From: Rahnella inusitata
Lineage (GTDB): Bacteria > Pseudomonadota > Gammaproteobacteria > Enterobacterales > Enterobacteriaceae
Direction: 5' to 3'
Assembly (NCBI RefSeq): GCF_003263515.1
Contig: NZ_JYDE01000015.1
Coordinates: forward strand, 1-64,000
Length of the DNA: 64,000 bases
The position numbers and the translations under genes are program-made. Each line of letters begins with the position of its first letter. Positions within the stretch are counted from its first letter, which is position 1. This document shows positions 8,181-57,829 of the stretch, in pieces. Under the pieces are notes generated by a model. It saw only the letters and a list, made by a program, of their open reading frames with translations. It was not told where the DNA came from and did not search any database.

Positions 8181-10322
8181 GTGCTCTCTATTGCACCAGG
8201 TTTAAGGCGTTACGCCTATAACAGCAATGTTCTTTATCACATCAGGATTTTCATTGCTCTGGCGGGTGCCGCAGCGGTGCCATGGTGGTTAGGTCAGACT
8301 ACGCTGACCATACCCCTGACGCTGGGCGTGGTTGCCGCAGCGCTCGCCGACCTCGACGACCGGCTGGCTGGCCGTCTGCGCAATTTGCTGATTACGCTGG
8401 TGTGTTTTTTTATTGCATCGGCTTCAATAGAGCTGCTCTTCCCCCATCCGTGGCTGTTTGCGCCCGGCCTGATGCTCTCAACCTGCGGATTCATTTTGCT
8501 GGGCGCACTCGGTCAGCGCTACGCCACTATCGCGTTTGGCGCGTTACTGATTGCGATTTACACCATGCTTGGCACCAGTATGTACCATATCTGGTATCAG
8601 CAACCGCTGCTCCTGCTGGCAGGTGCCATATGGTATAACTTGCTGACTCTTGCCGGGCATTTGATCTACCCTATCCGCCCCCTTCAGGATCAGATTTCCC
8701 GCTGTTTCACTCAGCTGGCCGCCTATCTGGAAGCCAAGGCGACCTTGTTCGACCCCGATCAGGAAGACAATAATCAGCAGCTGGTGGAACTCGCGATGGC
8801 CAACGGGCAGTTGGTTGCCACGCTGAACCAGACCAAAAATACGCTGCAAACCCGCCTGAAAGGTGACCGTGGGCAGAAAGGCACGCGCCGCACGCTGCAT
8901 TACTATTTTGTCGTGCAGGATATTCACGAGCGCGCCAGTTCTTCCCATGTGAAATACCTGAAACTCAGTGAACAGTTCCACCACAGCGACATCCTGTTTC
9001 GCTTCCAACGCCTGATGAGTATGCAAGCGCGCGCCTGTTCTCAACTTTCACAGTGCATTCTTTATCGTCAGCCCTACTCGCACAACAGCCAGTTCGAGCG
9101 TGCCTTTGCGCGACTCGAAGAAGCGCTAAAACGCCTGGAAGCGCAGGGGGATCATCGGGAAATGTTACAGGCATTGCGTCATCTTTTACGCAACCTGCAT
9201 GCGATCGATGCACAGCTGGCAAACATTGAGTCAGAGCAGTCAGAACCTGAGAATCATTCCGGCAAGAGTCCTTTTGCCGAAGATCGGTTAACCGGACTGG
9301 ATGATATCTGGCTGCGCATTTCGCGGCATTTTACGCCGCAGTCGGTGCTGTTTCGCCACGCCATTCGCATGTCCGTCGTACTCTTTGTCGGATATGTGTT
9401 TATTCAGGTAAGCGGAATGAATCACGGATACTGGATTTTGCTGACCAGCCTGTTTGTTTGTCAGCCCAACTATAGCGCGACGCGTCGTCGTTTAGCGCTG
9501 AGGATTATCGGCACACTGGCCGGTATCGCGATCGGTATTCCGATCCTGTATTTCGTCCCTTCCGTTGACGGTCAGATGATCCTGATTGTCATCAGTGGAC
9601 TGTTATTCTTCGCATTTCGTACCGTGCAATATGCGCAGGCCACCATGTTTATCACCCTATTGGTGTTGTTGTGTTTCAATTTGCTGGGCGAAGGTTTCGA
9701 AGTGGCCATACCGCGTATTATCGATACGGTGATTGGCTGTGGGATTGCGTGGGCGGCAGTGACCTATATCTGGCCTGACTGGAAATTCCGCCAGATTGAC
9801 AAAGTGGTCAGCAAAACCTTTGAAGCTAACTGCCGCTATCTGGATGCTATTTTGGTCCAATATCATCAGGGCAAAGATAACAGCCTGGATTACCGTCTGG
9901 CACGTCGTGATGCGCACAACTGCGATGCCGAATTGGCTTCCGTGGTCTCCAACATGAGCTCAGAGAAAAATAACGATCCTGCTACGCTCGAAGCTGCGTT
10001 CAGACTGTTATGCCTCAATCACACCATGCTGAGCTACATTTCAGCACTCGGTGCGCACCGGGAAAAACTTGAAGATACGGAAACACTTCGCCTGCTCGAT
10101 GATGCGGCATGTTGTGTGGATGGTGCTCTCAATCATATGCCGACAGAAACAGACCGGATTCAGCGTGCGCTTAATCATCTGACTGCGCGGATCCAATTAC
10201 GAACGACAGAATCCGACAGTAAAGAACAGCTCGTACTGCAGCAGATTGGTTTGCTGGTGGCTCATTTACCTGAGCTCACCAGCCTGAACAACAAAATTCT
10301 GCCCGGACAAAGTCATCTCTGA
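8181..10322 (+). CDS. yccS: FUSC-family inner-membrane protein YccS
   Basis: A 713-residue protein with two sets of about five transmembrane helices (about residues 20-160 and 395-525). Each precedes a cytoplasmic helical domain, the layout of the fusaric-acid-resistance (FUSC/AaeB-like) family. GMNHGYWILLTSLFVCQPNYSATRRR marks the second membrane block. It matches E. coli YccS along its length. The transported substrate is unknown. It ends 19 bases from the convergent tfoX. Confidence 0.93.
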   Translation: MLSIAPGLRRYAYNSNVLYHIRIFIALAGAAAVPWWLGQTTLTIPLTLGVVAAALADLDDRLAGRLRNLLITLVCFFIASASIELLFPHPWLFAPGLMLSTCGFILLGALGQRYATIAFGALLIAIYTMLGTSMYHIWYQQPLLLLAGAIWYNLLTLAGHLIYPIRPLQDQISRCFTQLAAYLEAKATLFDPDQEDNNQQLVELAMANGQLVATLNQTKNTLQTRLKGDRGQKGTRRTLHYYFVVQDIHERASSSHVKYLKLSEQFHHSDILFRFQRLMSMQARACSQLSQCILYRQPYSHNSQFERAFARLEEALKRLEAQGDHREMLQALRHLLRNLHAIDAQLANIESEQSEPENHSGKSPFAEDRLTGLDDIWLRISRHFTPQSVLFRHAIRMSVVLFVGYVFIQVSGMNHGYWILLTSLFVCQPNYSATRRRLALRIIGTLAGIAIGIPILYFVPSVDGQMILIVISGLLFFAFRTVQYAQATMFITLLVLLCFNLLGEGFEVAIPRIIDTVIGCGIAWAAVTYIWPDWKFRQIDKVVSKTFEANCRYLDAILVQYHQGKDNSLDYRLARRDAHNCDAELASVVSNMSSEKNNDPATLEAAFRLLCLNHTMLSYISALGAHREKLEDTETLRLLDDAACCVDGALNHMPTETDRIQRALNHLTARIQLRTTESDSKEQLVLQQIGLLVAHLPELTSLNNKILPGQSHL

Positions 10323-55098: not shown

Positions 55099-55281
55099 AA
55101 AATTCTCCCGGAGGCGAGTACGCCCATAATCTATGTGGCGCAGCGCGAAAATGCATTGGAAAACACAATACGACGGTGCCAGAGAATAGCATAACCGCCC
55201 GATCAGCGTTAATACCCACATCCCCAGGAAGAGGTAGAGAGAGAACGAAATGTAACGAGAAAATTTTCACTTTGTGATGAT
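55099..55281. other. Upstream part of ycaR-ycaQ gap
   Basis: No gene seen in this part. It contains the ycaR ribosome site and leader on the minus strand. No convincing minus-strand promoter was found, so ycaR-kdsB may depend on readthrough from ycaQ or on a weak promoter here. Confidence 0.4.
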
Positions 55282-55310
55282 TGCGTTACTGGCGGAGCCG
55301 GAGTAGAATT
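55282..55310 (+). promoter_or_regulatory. Promoter of the ycaR-ycaQ intergenic small transcript
   Basis: -35 TTGCGT (55282-55287), exactly 17 bases, -10 TAGAAT (55305-55310, five of six consensus bases). It points away from ycaR toward the small ORF at 55357. The start point would be near 55317, inside the CRP site, so CRP-cAMP would be expected to block it. Confidence 0.5.
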
Positions 55311-55313
55311 TTT

Positions 55314-55329
55314 TGTGAGCTACATCACA
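55314..55329. promoter_or_regulatory. Consensus CRP-cAMP site
   Basis: TGTGAGCTACATCACA has both perfect half-sites TGTGA-N6-TCACA. A weaker half-site TGTGA at 55274-55278 overlaps the -35 of the upstream promoter. Relative to that promoter the strong site sits at about +5, a repressing position. Relative to a second possible -10 (TAAAAT, 55353-55358) it sits at about -42, a class II activating position. Which is used cannot be told from sequence. Confidence 0.8.
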
Positions 55330-55356
55330 TAAATAACCTTCAATACGAGTTTTAAA

Positions 55357-55407
55357 ATGAAAACCATTAACAAAATCATCGCTATGTTCGCAAACTTCAG
55401 CAACTAA
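55357..55407 (+). CDS. Putative 16-residue amphipathic small protein
   Basis: The ORF encodes MKTINKIIAMFANFSN. Nearly every codon is one preferred in highly expressed enterobacterial genes (AAA ACC AAC ATC ATC GCT TTC AAC TTC AGC AAC TAA). Hydrophobic residues I4, I7, I8, F11 and F14 recur on a helical face and Lys2/Lys6 add positive charge, suggesting membrane-surface binding. A partial GAG ribosome site lies seven bases upstream. It resembles, from memory, the N-terminal part of the 28-residue AzuC of E. coli, another CRP-controlled small-protein RNA; this is a suggestion, not an assignment. Alternatively the region is only an sRNA. Confidence 0.5.
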   Translation: MKTINKIIAMFANFSN

Positions 55408-55438
55408 CATTGCGTGGCACCTGCTATCATCGTGAATC

Positions 55439-55472
55439 AACGGCTGCCTGAGGCAGCCGTTTTACTTTTTTT
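55439..55472 (+). terminator. Rho-independent terminator of the small transcript
   Basis: AACGGCTGC-CTGAG-GCAGCCGTT followed by TTACTTTTTTT: a 9-bp stem with a T-rich tail on the plus strand only. The minus strand lacks a T-tract here, so the hairpin is not primarily a ycaQ terminator. It therefore marks the end of a plus-strand transcript although no long plus-strand gene exists upstream. Confidence 0.82.
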
Positions 55473-56697
55473 AGCTTAGCTGCCAGCCGGAATTCCAGTA
55501 ACCCTCTAACACATCAGGAATTTTTAGGACACTCACCTGTTCAGCCCCCTGCCATAACGCAAACCGATTAACAGCACCGGTGATATCCTGCACCCGTCGG
55601 GATGTGATTCTTGTACCTGGCTCCAGATGCAAACTTTTGACCTCAAGGATTTTTTCCTTGCGATGCATTTTGGCATCTACGCGGCCAATGAGTTCGCCAC
55701 GTTGCAGAATGGGTAAGCTGAAATAGCCATACTGGCGTTTCGCTTCTGGCGTGTAACACTCGATCCGATATTCAAAATTGAACAACGTCGATGCACGCTT
55801 GCGGTCCCATACCACAGGGTCAAAGGGCGATAAAAGCGTCGTTACTGTAGACGTAATACCTGAATCAAGCGCCTGCTGTAACAGAGGCCATTGTTGCTGA
55901 TGCACATAAAAAACGCCCTCCAGTCCGTCAACTTCAACGGGCGTAATTTCCTCATCTGCCAGCAAATTCGCAATCACTTTTTTGGTATCAACACGTTTAA
56001 GCCGGTAATAATCCGCCAGCCACTCCGCCTTGAATAAACCGAGACATTGCGCGGACCGCCTGAGCATTTGAAACTCTGCCGCTTCTTGCGTCAGCGCCTG
56101 GGTCGCATCATCCCAGCCGGGCATAACACGTTCAGCCAGATCATAAACCCGGTGAAAATTACGCCGTTCAGCGACCATCAGCTGGCCCGACGTGAACAGG
56201 GTTTCCAGATGCTTTTTATGCGGTTTCCAGTCCCACCAGCCACTGTTCGGTTTCTTCTCGGCGCTGAAATCGGCTGATCGAACAGGACCCTTCTCAGCAA
56301 TATGGGCAAGTAACGCCTGAATATCGTTCTGGTGTTCATCGAACCATGCCTGCGAAAACTTCCATCCCATTTTCTGCGGATTTAACATGCGATGGCGCAG
56401 CAGACCGTAATCTTCGCTGGGGATAAAGCAGGCCTCATGCGCCCAGTATTCAAAAACCTTACCCGCTGACAGCGCGTCTTCCAGCCAATGCGGTGAATAA
56501 TTGCCAAGCCTGCTGAACAGCACCAGATACGGACTGCGGGCAACCACGCTTATTGTGTCGATCTGCAACAATCCCATAGTGCGGATTGCCTGCACAACAT
56601 CGTCGGCAGACGGTTTTTTGATCCGGGGTTTATAAAAGTTTTGAGCAGACAAATGCAGGGTGCGGGCTGAAACGAGAGATATAACCGGGTGAGACAT
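55471..56697 (-). CDS. ycaQ: DNA glycosylase YcaQ (AlkX, HTH_42 family)
   Basis: A 408-residue protein of the AlkZ/YcaQ family with tandem winged helices. The catalytic QxD motif is in GLLQIDTISVVARSPYLVLFSRLGNY (about residues 40-65), and LSPFDPVVWDRKRASTLFNFEYRIECYTP (about 280-308) is conserved. E. coli YcaQ unhooks interstrand crosslinks caused by nitrogen mustards. The C-terminal 50 residues differ from E. coli. The start at 56697 (MSHPVISL) has GGAT six bases upstream; the ATG at 56709 has no ribosome site. Confidence 0.9.
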   Translation of the reverse strand: MSHPVISLVSARTLHLSAQNFYKPRIKKPSADDVVQAIRTMGLLQIDTISVVARSPYLVLFSRLGNYSPHWLEDALSAGKVFEYWAHEACFIPSEDYGLLRHRMLNPQKMGWKFSQAWFDEHQNDIQALLAHIAEKGPVRSADFSAEKKPNSGWWDWKPHKKHLETLFTSGQLMVAERRNFHRVYDLAERVMPGWDDATQALTQEAAEFQMLRRSAQCLGLFKAEWLADYYRLKRVDTKKVIANLLADEEITPVEVDGLEGVFYVHQQQWPLLQQALDSGITSTVTTLLSPFDPVVWDRKRASTLFNFEYRIECYTPEAKRQYGYFSLPILQRGELIGRVDAKMHRKEKILEVKSLHLEPGTRITSRRVQDITGAVNRFALWQGAEQVSVLKIPDVLEGYWNSGWQLS

Positions 56698-57065: not shown

Positions 57066-57185
57066 GTTTGCCCATTTCTAAGTTAATTTTTTTATAAAAA
57101 ACCTCTAATGAGCGAATTTGTTTTAACGATTATTTTTACTACTTTTACGACTTATCATCACGCCGTATGTATTTTTGCAGACATT

Positions 57186-57209
57186 AAAAACCCGCCGTCC
57201 GGCGGGCTT
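57186..57209 (-). terminator. Rho-independent terminator of the canonical csp gene
   Basis: On the minus strand AAGCCCGCCGGACGGCGGGTTTTT: a 7-8-bp GC-rich stem with a two- to four-base loop and a T-tract, about 60 bases after the stop at 57268. It separates the two csp genes, so the downstream one needs its own promoter. Confidence 0.88.
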
Positions 57210-57267
57210 TACTCTGCTGATATGAATAACGGATAAGGTTGTTTCATATCATCATGTTAGCCTCTTA

Positions 57268-57477
57268 TCAGAGAGCAATAACATTAGCAGCAGCAGGACC
57301 GCGCGGGCTATCCTGAATGGTATATTCTACACGCTGACCTTCGGCCAGAGTTTTGAAACCATCGGTGGCAATTGCAGAGAAATGTACGAAGACATCTTTA
57401 CCGCCATCAGCCTGCTCAATAAAACCAAAACCTTTGCTTTCATTGAACCACTTAACCTGACCCATTTTCTTAGACAT
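57268..57477 (-). CDS. Canonical cold-shock protein (CspC/CspE type)
   Basis: A 69-residue single cold-shock domain with intact RNP1 KGFGFI (15-20) and RNP2 VFVHFSAI. It is very close to E. coli CspE/CspC ([18 protein letters not shown]). It binds RNA and ssDNA and acts as an RNA chaperone or antiterminator. As I recall the E. coli order, no csp genes lie between lpxK and ycaQ, so the two csp genes look like a lineage-specific insertion or duplication. An AAGG ribosome site lies upstream. Which csp symbol applies cannot be decided. Confidence 0.93.
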
Positions 57478-57829
57478 GCTTAAAACCTTTTACGAAATAT
57501 AAAATCCTGCCATTCGGCAATGTTGGCCAATAGTTCAGACAATTACTTATGGGGAGGACTTAGAAGGTTCGTCTTGGAAGCGGAATCATCGGGAAAGAGA
57601 TAACGTCTGGGAGGAACTGCTTTACTCTACACTCATACATAAATAGCGCTGCAACACAGGCTGCACGCATTAACTCACACCCCTGAAACAATAGCAAGTG
57701 AAGTGCTGAAACAAATGTTATGATTTTCAAGATATGGATAAATAGTCTTTATAAATCATGCTCTTTAAATTTAAAAAAAAATATGTAAAATTTACCGAAG
57801 AACGGTGATCCTGACGAGTTTAAGGCAAA
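57478..57829 (-). promoter_or_regulatory. Upstream region of the canonical csp gene and 3' end of lpxK
   Basis: No gene in 352 bases. On the minus strand TTGCTA, 18 bases, TTAATG near 57660-57690 is a possible promoter. It would give a leader of about 180 bases, a length seen in cold-shock genes. Just after the lpxK stop, ACCGTTCTTCGGT followed by AAATTTTACATATTTTTTTTT may be a weak lpxK terminator. Confidence 0.4.

Follow-up and report, generated by a model that had tools for sequence, protein, structure and literature searches.

A conserved family of probable CRP-repressed microprotein genes in Enterobacterales, represented by a 16-codon open reading frame between ycaR and ycaQ of Rahnella inusitata

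Several bacterial transcripts under CRP control carry very short open reading frames (ORFs). AzuCR is repressed by CRP, and a link between AzuC and GlpD is reported in the passages of PMC8672173 that deal with it. For Spot 42, the sections on its microprotein SpfP in PMC8672173, PMC10339803 and PMC11188072 report that SpfP binds CRP. In Vibrio cholerae, VcdRP is outlined in part of PMC8672173 as a CRP-repressed RNA that also encodes a small protein, VcdP, acting on carbon metabolism. Finally, the passage of PMC4376681 on Ysr206, an sRNA of Y. pseudotuberculosis, states that it is detected only in a crp mutant and that CRP binds cooperatively, with more than one site predicted.

The locus described here lies in a stretch of 64,000 nucleotides of Rahnella inusitata DNA, called the window. 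Between ycaR and ycaQ, both on the minus strand, a plus-strand unit occupies positions 55281-55472; on direct reading, a promoter, a CRP palindrome, a leader, an ORF, 31 bases and a terminator follow one another in this order (Table 1). Neighbouring genes were named by reading their proteins and the gene order, ycaQ-ycaR-kdsB being arranged as in K-12. The predicted transcription start is at about 55316, which puts the centre of the CRP palindrome at about +6. In the preliminary description, the unit was given a TTGCGT-N17-TAGAAT promoter, a perfect CRP site and a hairpin terminator on the plus strand only. The promoter is present as claimed, all ten consensus bases of the CRP site are in place, and the terminator scan agrees on the hairpin and its strand; the start, formerly near 55317, and the CRP centre, formerly about +5, required small corrections. 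A strict promoter scanner found no promoters at the unit, because TTGCGT/TAGAAT falls short of its cut-off.

Table 1. Elements of the unit in the window, with positions counted from the first nucleotide of the window
Feature	Position	Strand	Remarks
-35 element TTGCGT	55281-55286	+	direct reading; promoter conserved in family
-10 element TAGAAT	55304-55309	+	17-base spacer after -35
CRP palindrome TGTGAGCTACATCACA (TGTGA-N6-TCACA type)	55314-55329	+	10/10 consensus bases; overlaps predicted start
Leader, 27 bases	55330-55356	+	weak Shine-Dalgarno-like ACGAG
ORF, 16 codons and stop, peptide MKTINKIIAMFANFSN	55357-55407 (ATG to TAA)	+	pN/pS 0.15 on codons 12-16
Short 3' stretch, stop to hairpin, 31 bases	55408-55438	+	
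Block CACCTGCTATCATCGTGAA within 3' stretch	55418-55436	+	core ATCATCGTGAA
Intrinsic terminator, 10-pair hairpin and T-rich tail	55439-55472	+	terminator scan

The terminator consists of the hairpin AACGGCTGCC-TGA-GGCAGCCGTT (55439-55461) and the tail TTACTTTTTTT (55462-55472), and its final bases run into the end of ycaQ, which is on the opposite strand. Folded from the predicted start, the RNA has this hairpin in its minimum-energy structure; beyond it, the centroid fold holds one 3-pair helix only. At this place, Rfam gave no match at the gathering score and none to Spot 42. A sub-threshold DnaX match (E 0.023, with a weaker one at E 1.3), placed over the hairpin on the minus strand, was read as the terminator hairpin itself. 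Elsewhere in the window, at 57182-57665 on the minus strand, a cspA thermoregulator RNA (Rfam RF01766, E 5.6e-23) lies over a cold-shock-like gene.

The unit in the window belongs to a conserved gene family. A DNA similarity search of 198 genomes of the taxonomic family gave matches in 30, with the ORF in 27 of these. The family itself was collected with a DNA pattern drawn from the ORF only, ATGANNNNNNTNNANAARATHATYGCNNTNTTY, which was searched with at most one mismatch in 392 enterobacterial genomes. It matched 113 genomes at 116 places, all of which were examined; with the reversed pattern as control, there were 6 matching places in 5 genomes. Within the window there is one match, where 0.06 would be expected even at three mismatches. 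As two loci (L069 and L070) are identical, the places reduce to 115 distinct ones, and 111 family ORFs remain once four chance-like loci (L048, L053, L067 and L073) are set aside because of their place and peptide.

A scan of named species with the same pattern, without mismatch, gave at least 120 stretches. Among the matches listed, 77 loci have a CRP site of 9-10/10 and 43 do not (at most 8/10). All 77 of the former have an ORF of 16 (35 loci) or 23 (42 loci) codons from the ATG of the pattern, and none of the 43 has either length. The listed loci with a CRP site come from Rahnella, Rouxiella, Yersinia, Hafnia, Sodalis, Serratia sp., Pectobacterium, Dickeya, Brenneria, Samsonia, Enterobacter, Citrobacter, Kosakonia, Kluyvera, Raoultella and others, all of them Enterobacterales with one exception (L240); those without come from cyanobacteria, Bacteroidota, Clostridia and others, with no enterobacterial locus among them. 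The named loci overlap the 392-genome set in part and are therefore not an independent sample. The exception, in a record named Chryseobacterium sp. 18061, has atpC and glmU beside the family ORF and is probably an enterobacterial contaminant or mislabelled.

No Pfam or NCBIfam model matched the family relatives, and no Rfam family matched the units L001, L022 and L028, the latter a weak negative in that azuCR in L031 also went unreported by Rfam. As to presence in E. coli, a distant-mode blastn search of 20,395 records with four queries and E up to 1 gave no match, again a weak negative in that the class C query also missed azuC, despite containing an AzuC-like ORF (see below). In K-12, the gap between ycaQ and ycaR is 51 bp only, and the atpC-glmU gap, inspected by eye, has neither the CRP palindrome nor the ORF. 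A text search of one collection of papers found the family peptide strings in none of them; in the same collection, nothing was returned on a small protein and CRP at atpC-glmU, the titles listed for an sRNA at ycaR-ycaQ were unrelated, and those listed for CRP-repressed small proteins and Yersinia Ribo-seq had no bearing on the family. The main text of a microprotein survey of Enterobacteriaceae (PMC11188072) names no Rahnella, atpC, glmU or AzuC; its 67,297 clusters lie outside the main text, so that the ORF of the window may be among them.

Family members occupy four chromosomal homes: ycaR-ycaQ (class A), atpC-glmU (class B), ghxP-lpxP (class C) and ychJ-rssA (class D). Class A, to which the window belongs, comprises 44 distinct loci with 16 codons from the aligned start. 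The aligned codon is ATG in 36 of the 44 and non-ATG in the remaining 8 (ATC in seven, ATA in L066); in seven of these eight, an ATG or GTG stands just before it, and L066 has neither. The 45 loci of class B adjoin atpC and are followed by glmU or a pectate-lyase-like gene; they encode 16 (12 loci), 22 (1) or 23 (32) residues. In class C (19 loci), the ORF adjoins ghxP, lpxP being within reach at 10 of the loci, and has 23 (15 loci) or 24 (4) residues. Class D, with 23 residues, comprises three distinct loci in Yersinia, in genomes that also carry class A. Such second Yersinia copies at ychJ-rssA were noted at L119, L121, L125 and L228, with a two-site CRP promoter (one site read out at L228). 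Downstream of the family ORF, the genes vary: ycaQ is convergent in class A, glmU or a pectate-lyase-like gene follows class B, lpxP is convergent in class C and rssA is co-directional in class D. As no gene is constantly found downstream, the reading of the family ORF as the leader peptide of one particular gene, or as an attenuator, was rejected.

Upstream of the ORF, the CRP site provides an independent test of the family, because the search pattern says nothing about CRP. A site of at least 9/10 lies within 110 bp upstream of 109 of the 111 family ORFs, 104 of these sites being perfect (109/115 if the four chance-like loci are retained). By contrast, the same loci yield none at 9,892 other ATGs and none at 2,367 other ORFs of 12-30 codons. 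Two class A loci deviate: L021 (genome G104) keeps the ORF with the CRP site absent, and L066 (genome G051) keeps the ORF with a CRP site of 8/10 and the usual start codon absent. In addition, a promoter-like TTGnnn-N16-18-TAnnnT lies immediately ahead of the CRP site in 109/111 units, as against 26/2,300 random control stretches. Across family units, the gap between the -10 element and this proximal site is 1-8 bases, so that the site covers the predicted start site; its distance to the start codon ranges from 18 to 43 bases. In the leader, many other family members have AGGA or GAGG, as judged by eye.

A CRP site that lies over the transcription start blocks RNA polymerase. Given this behaviour of CRP promoters and the site over the predicted start, we infer from the position of the site alone that CRP would act here as a repressor. 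In classes B, C and D, furthermore, two palindromes bracket the promoter. Two sites of at least 8/10 are found in 41/45 units of class B, 19/19 of C and 3/3 of D, and in 1/44 of A. They are 57-58 bases apart in 38/41, 19/19 and 3/3 of the class B, C and D units, respectively (60/63), and the distal site ends 6-7 bases before the -35 element in 40/45, 19/19 and 3/3. Such an arrangement would suit repression, an argument that does not apply to the window's class because it has a single CRP site.

The ORF itself is under purifying selection in frame, as judged from comparison of its copies. Among the 31 distinct class A ORFs that start with ATG, pN/pS is 0.17 over the whole ORF and 1.3-1.7 in the two other frames and in antisense. 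Since the search pattern fixes most of codons 1-11, the whole-ORF value is flattered, and the fair test is that of codons 12 onward. There, pN/pS is 0.147 in class A, 0.193 in class B members of 23 residues, 0.335 in those of 16 residues and 0.406 in class C, while the other frames of classes A and B give 0.87-1.83. In the window, the codon adaptation index (CAI) of the ORF, with E. coli ribosomal-protein codons as yardstick, is 0.888, a value reached by 9/966 16-codon stretches of the long ORFs of the window and by 5/20,000 random synonymous versions; the class A median, 0.686, is below it. The preliminary description had seen almost only preferred codons in this ORF, which is borne out, and had proposed alignment across genera as a check, in which ORF change proved mainly synonymous with the frame kept, the CRP site and promoter conserved, and the terminator mostly so. 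Its observation as a whole is confirmed, and its core reading of the locus, namely a plus-strand unit under CRP control in which a 16-codon ORF is translated, is supported by these comparisons.

It is likely that the unit is a CRP-repressed gene for a 16-residue amphipathic microprotein of the glucose state, with a logic similar to that of AzuCR. Promoter-like and operator-like elements, coding selection, a terminator and wide conservation can be read from the sequences, and two marks of a CRP-repressed microprotein transcript are found among them: a putative CRP site placed to occlude the promoter and a short ORF under protein-level selection. Transcription, repression rather than activation, and binding of the peptide to a membrane or an enzyme are extrapolated from these. 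In the proposed mechanism, sigma-70 RNA polymerase would start at about 55316, and transcription would stop at the hairpin after about 150 nt. CRP-cAMP would bind over the start site and block transcription, so that RNA and peptide would be made at low cAMP, as on glucose. The 16-mer has a polar K/N/K face and an I-I-I-F-F face, and its amphipathicity is equalled by 57/5,000 shuffles; it would most likely bind to the inner membrane or to a partner protein. As AzuC, SpfP and VcdP have roles in carbon metabolism, described in passages of PMC8672173, PMC10339803 and PMC11188072, the peptide would by analogy most likely adjust a carbon-metabolism step when glucose is plentiful.

A hairpin with a T-rich tail is found within 200 bases past the stop in 33/44 units of class A (27 of the 33 within 32 bases of the stop), 34/45 of B, 18/19 of C and 0/3 of D, compared with 32/345 control stretches. 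The scan found none in 11/44 units of class A, including that of Serratia sp. AKBS12 (L013), 11/45 of B, 1/19 of C and 3/3 of D, and as it demands perfect pairing, imperfect hairpins are missed. In class A, the sequence of the hairpin changes between genera and the hairpin stays. Besides encoding the peptide, the RNA might have a function of its own. As in AzuCR, Spot 42 and SgrS, the transcript would then be a dual-function RNA, whose untranslated regions, either the CACCTGC block or the leader, would base-pair with mRNA targets. The block CACCTGCWATCATCGTGAA, between stop and terminator, is kept in the six units of the window's genus, and CCTGC, the complement of which, GCAGG, is Shine-Dalgarno-like, occurs in the leader or 3' stretch of 31/43 class A units against 3.7 expected from shuffles, a motif chosen after looking and counted in units related by descent. 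Nevertheless, the core of the block is present in those six units of the 44 in class A and in no other, CCTGC occurs in 8/45 units of class B, 0/19 of C and 0/3 of D, and just 31 nt separate the stop from the hairpin. An additional pairing function is rather unlikely. CCTGC or CACCTG recurs in the untranslated parts of class A, and ACACCTG can be seen by eye in the azuCR leader.

Other explanations fare worse than the CRP-repressed microprotein gene. A tiny amphipathic peptide encoded by an intergenic unit could also be the membrane-active, toxin-like member of a type I toxin-antitoxin pair. However, the mean hydrophobicity of the window peptide is 0.32 and it has no strongly hydrophobic stretch. 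Moreover, 110 of the 113 matching genomes have a single match (three Yersinia-type genomes have two), the link to a metabolic regulator, CRP, is conserved, and no promoter for an antisense RNA was found by the scan, which also missed the sense promoter. A toxin is very unlikely. Slightly less probable still, and largely refuted, is a non-coding CRP-controlled sRNA in which the ORF is incidental; such an RNA would account for a short transcription unit with promoter and terminator, yet pN/pS is low on the pattern-free codons (0.15-0.41, compared with 0.87-1.83 in other frames of A and B), ORF length is confined to two values in the 77 listed named loci with a CRP site, and the untranslated parts differ between genera. 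Finally, the second reading in the preliminary description, an RNA starting near 55364 with CRP as class II activator, is rejected as extremely improbable: the CRP centre does lie 41.5 bases upstream of about 55363, but the -10-like TAnnnT is at the required place in 15/110 units only, the conserved ORF start would be left untranscribed, the conserved promoter is upstream of the CRP site, and the gap that holds steady across the family is that from the -10 element to the CRP site, whereas the one between that site and the start codon varies.

With the CRP-repressed reading, the small set of microproteins under CRP control gains an apparently unannotated family. The comparative record of this family, with a near-fixed length, a near-fixed operator and four homes, is far clearer than that of a single locus. 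As each unit is tiny and self-contained, with its own operator, the role of a glucose-state microprotein can be asked directly. The family also raises the question of why some genera carry it, AzuC, both or neither. More generally, a pattern that joins an ORF with a regulator site can reveal 16-codon genes, which annotation tends to skip.

With respect to known systems, the window family is not AzuC. The AzuC profile (NF033642) scores over its cut-off in 59 of the 198 genomes, and 29 of the 54 genomes of this set with a family ORF also hold AzuC, at different places. The three genomes of the window's genus in the set have the family and no AzuC match, and the genome of the window (G000) has no match to NF033642 at E 0.1. 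Nor did the AzuC model match the four relatives compared with it, which have 23-24 residues, or one second ORF of class C (entered with one wrong residue), in a tool whose minimum of 20 residues leaves the 16-mer of the window below it. The preliminary description had likened the start of the peptide to that of AzuC. This resemblance is at the level of chance, as 254/2,000 shuffles of the window peptide score as well; two 23-residue relatives gave 92 and 573 of 2,000, and the relative MKLINKIIAMFANYSN gave 13/2,000 as a best-of-several choice. With the profile result in its genome, this led to the rejection of AzuC orthology for the window peptide.

A different relation to AzuC appears in class C. 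There, a second conserved ORF of 27-28 residues, of the M.IVRKINQILKALGKTYRGVNPHAIFR type, comes right after the ORF of 23-24 residues and makes the unit a two-microprotein operon (L015, L016, L020, L022, L023, L039, L041, L049-L051, L087-L090, L113-L116 and L127). Its local score to AzuC is reached by 0/5,000 shuffles, the resemblance being clearest in the C-terminal half and overall identity being 25%. It is present in 10 of the 198 genomes, at the class C place in nine; the tenth (G048) is a weak match. AzuC, the window family and the second ORF of this Pectobacteriaceae-type operon might descend from one cassette that was re-sited repeatedly in Enterobacterales, with two CRP dimers shutting out the polymerase at three of the four loci and the window's class keeping only the start-overlapping site. 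In such a cassette, a TTGA -35 element with a CRP site lying 6 bases upstream would drive a microprotein that starts MK(L). The cassette would be found at the four loci described here and at azuCR, mostly with one family copy per genome, as a microprotein system of the glucose state; where two dimers act, they would flank the promoter at a distance of 57-58 bases from each other. Such a common origin is a tentative idea, somewhat on the doubtful side.

The promoters themselves are alike. CRP-N6/7-TTG[AC] precedes AzuC in 11/12 loci fetched and in E. coli, and it is likewise found in 62/67 units of classes B, C and D. In AzuC, the second CRP site lies 30 bases after the first, whereas the spacing in classes B, C and D is 57-58 bases, which puts the second site past the -10 element; the window's class, unlike AzuC and the other three classes, is without the distal site. 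AzuC has 28 residues, compared with 16 in the window, and is a separate gene at its own place, which in E. coli is yecJ-yecR and differs from all four family loci. Among the other systems, VcdP (29 residues, with an RNA of more than 300 nt, in another taxon) is set apart from the window family by its description. Spot 42 and SpfP (15 residues) resemble the proposed gene in having a CRP-repressed short RNA with an ORF of nearly equal length; the SpfP sequence appears unrelated. Ysr206, as portrayed in the passage of PMC4376681 cited above, would agree with a unit that has two sites, as the ychJ-rssA copy of Yersinia does, and could, as a lead only, be one of these family units. As for AzuCR, the parallel drawn in the preliminary description probably holds for the regulatory logic; the promoter module is common to three of the four locus classes, and does not extend to the window's own class. 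AzuCR and the family have in common a very short ORF that starts MK, CRP sites at the promoter and a short terminated RNA, which in the family is predicted.
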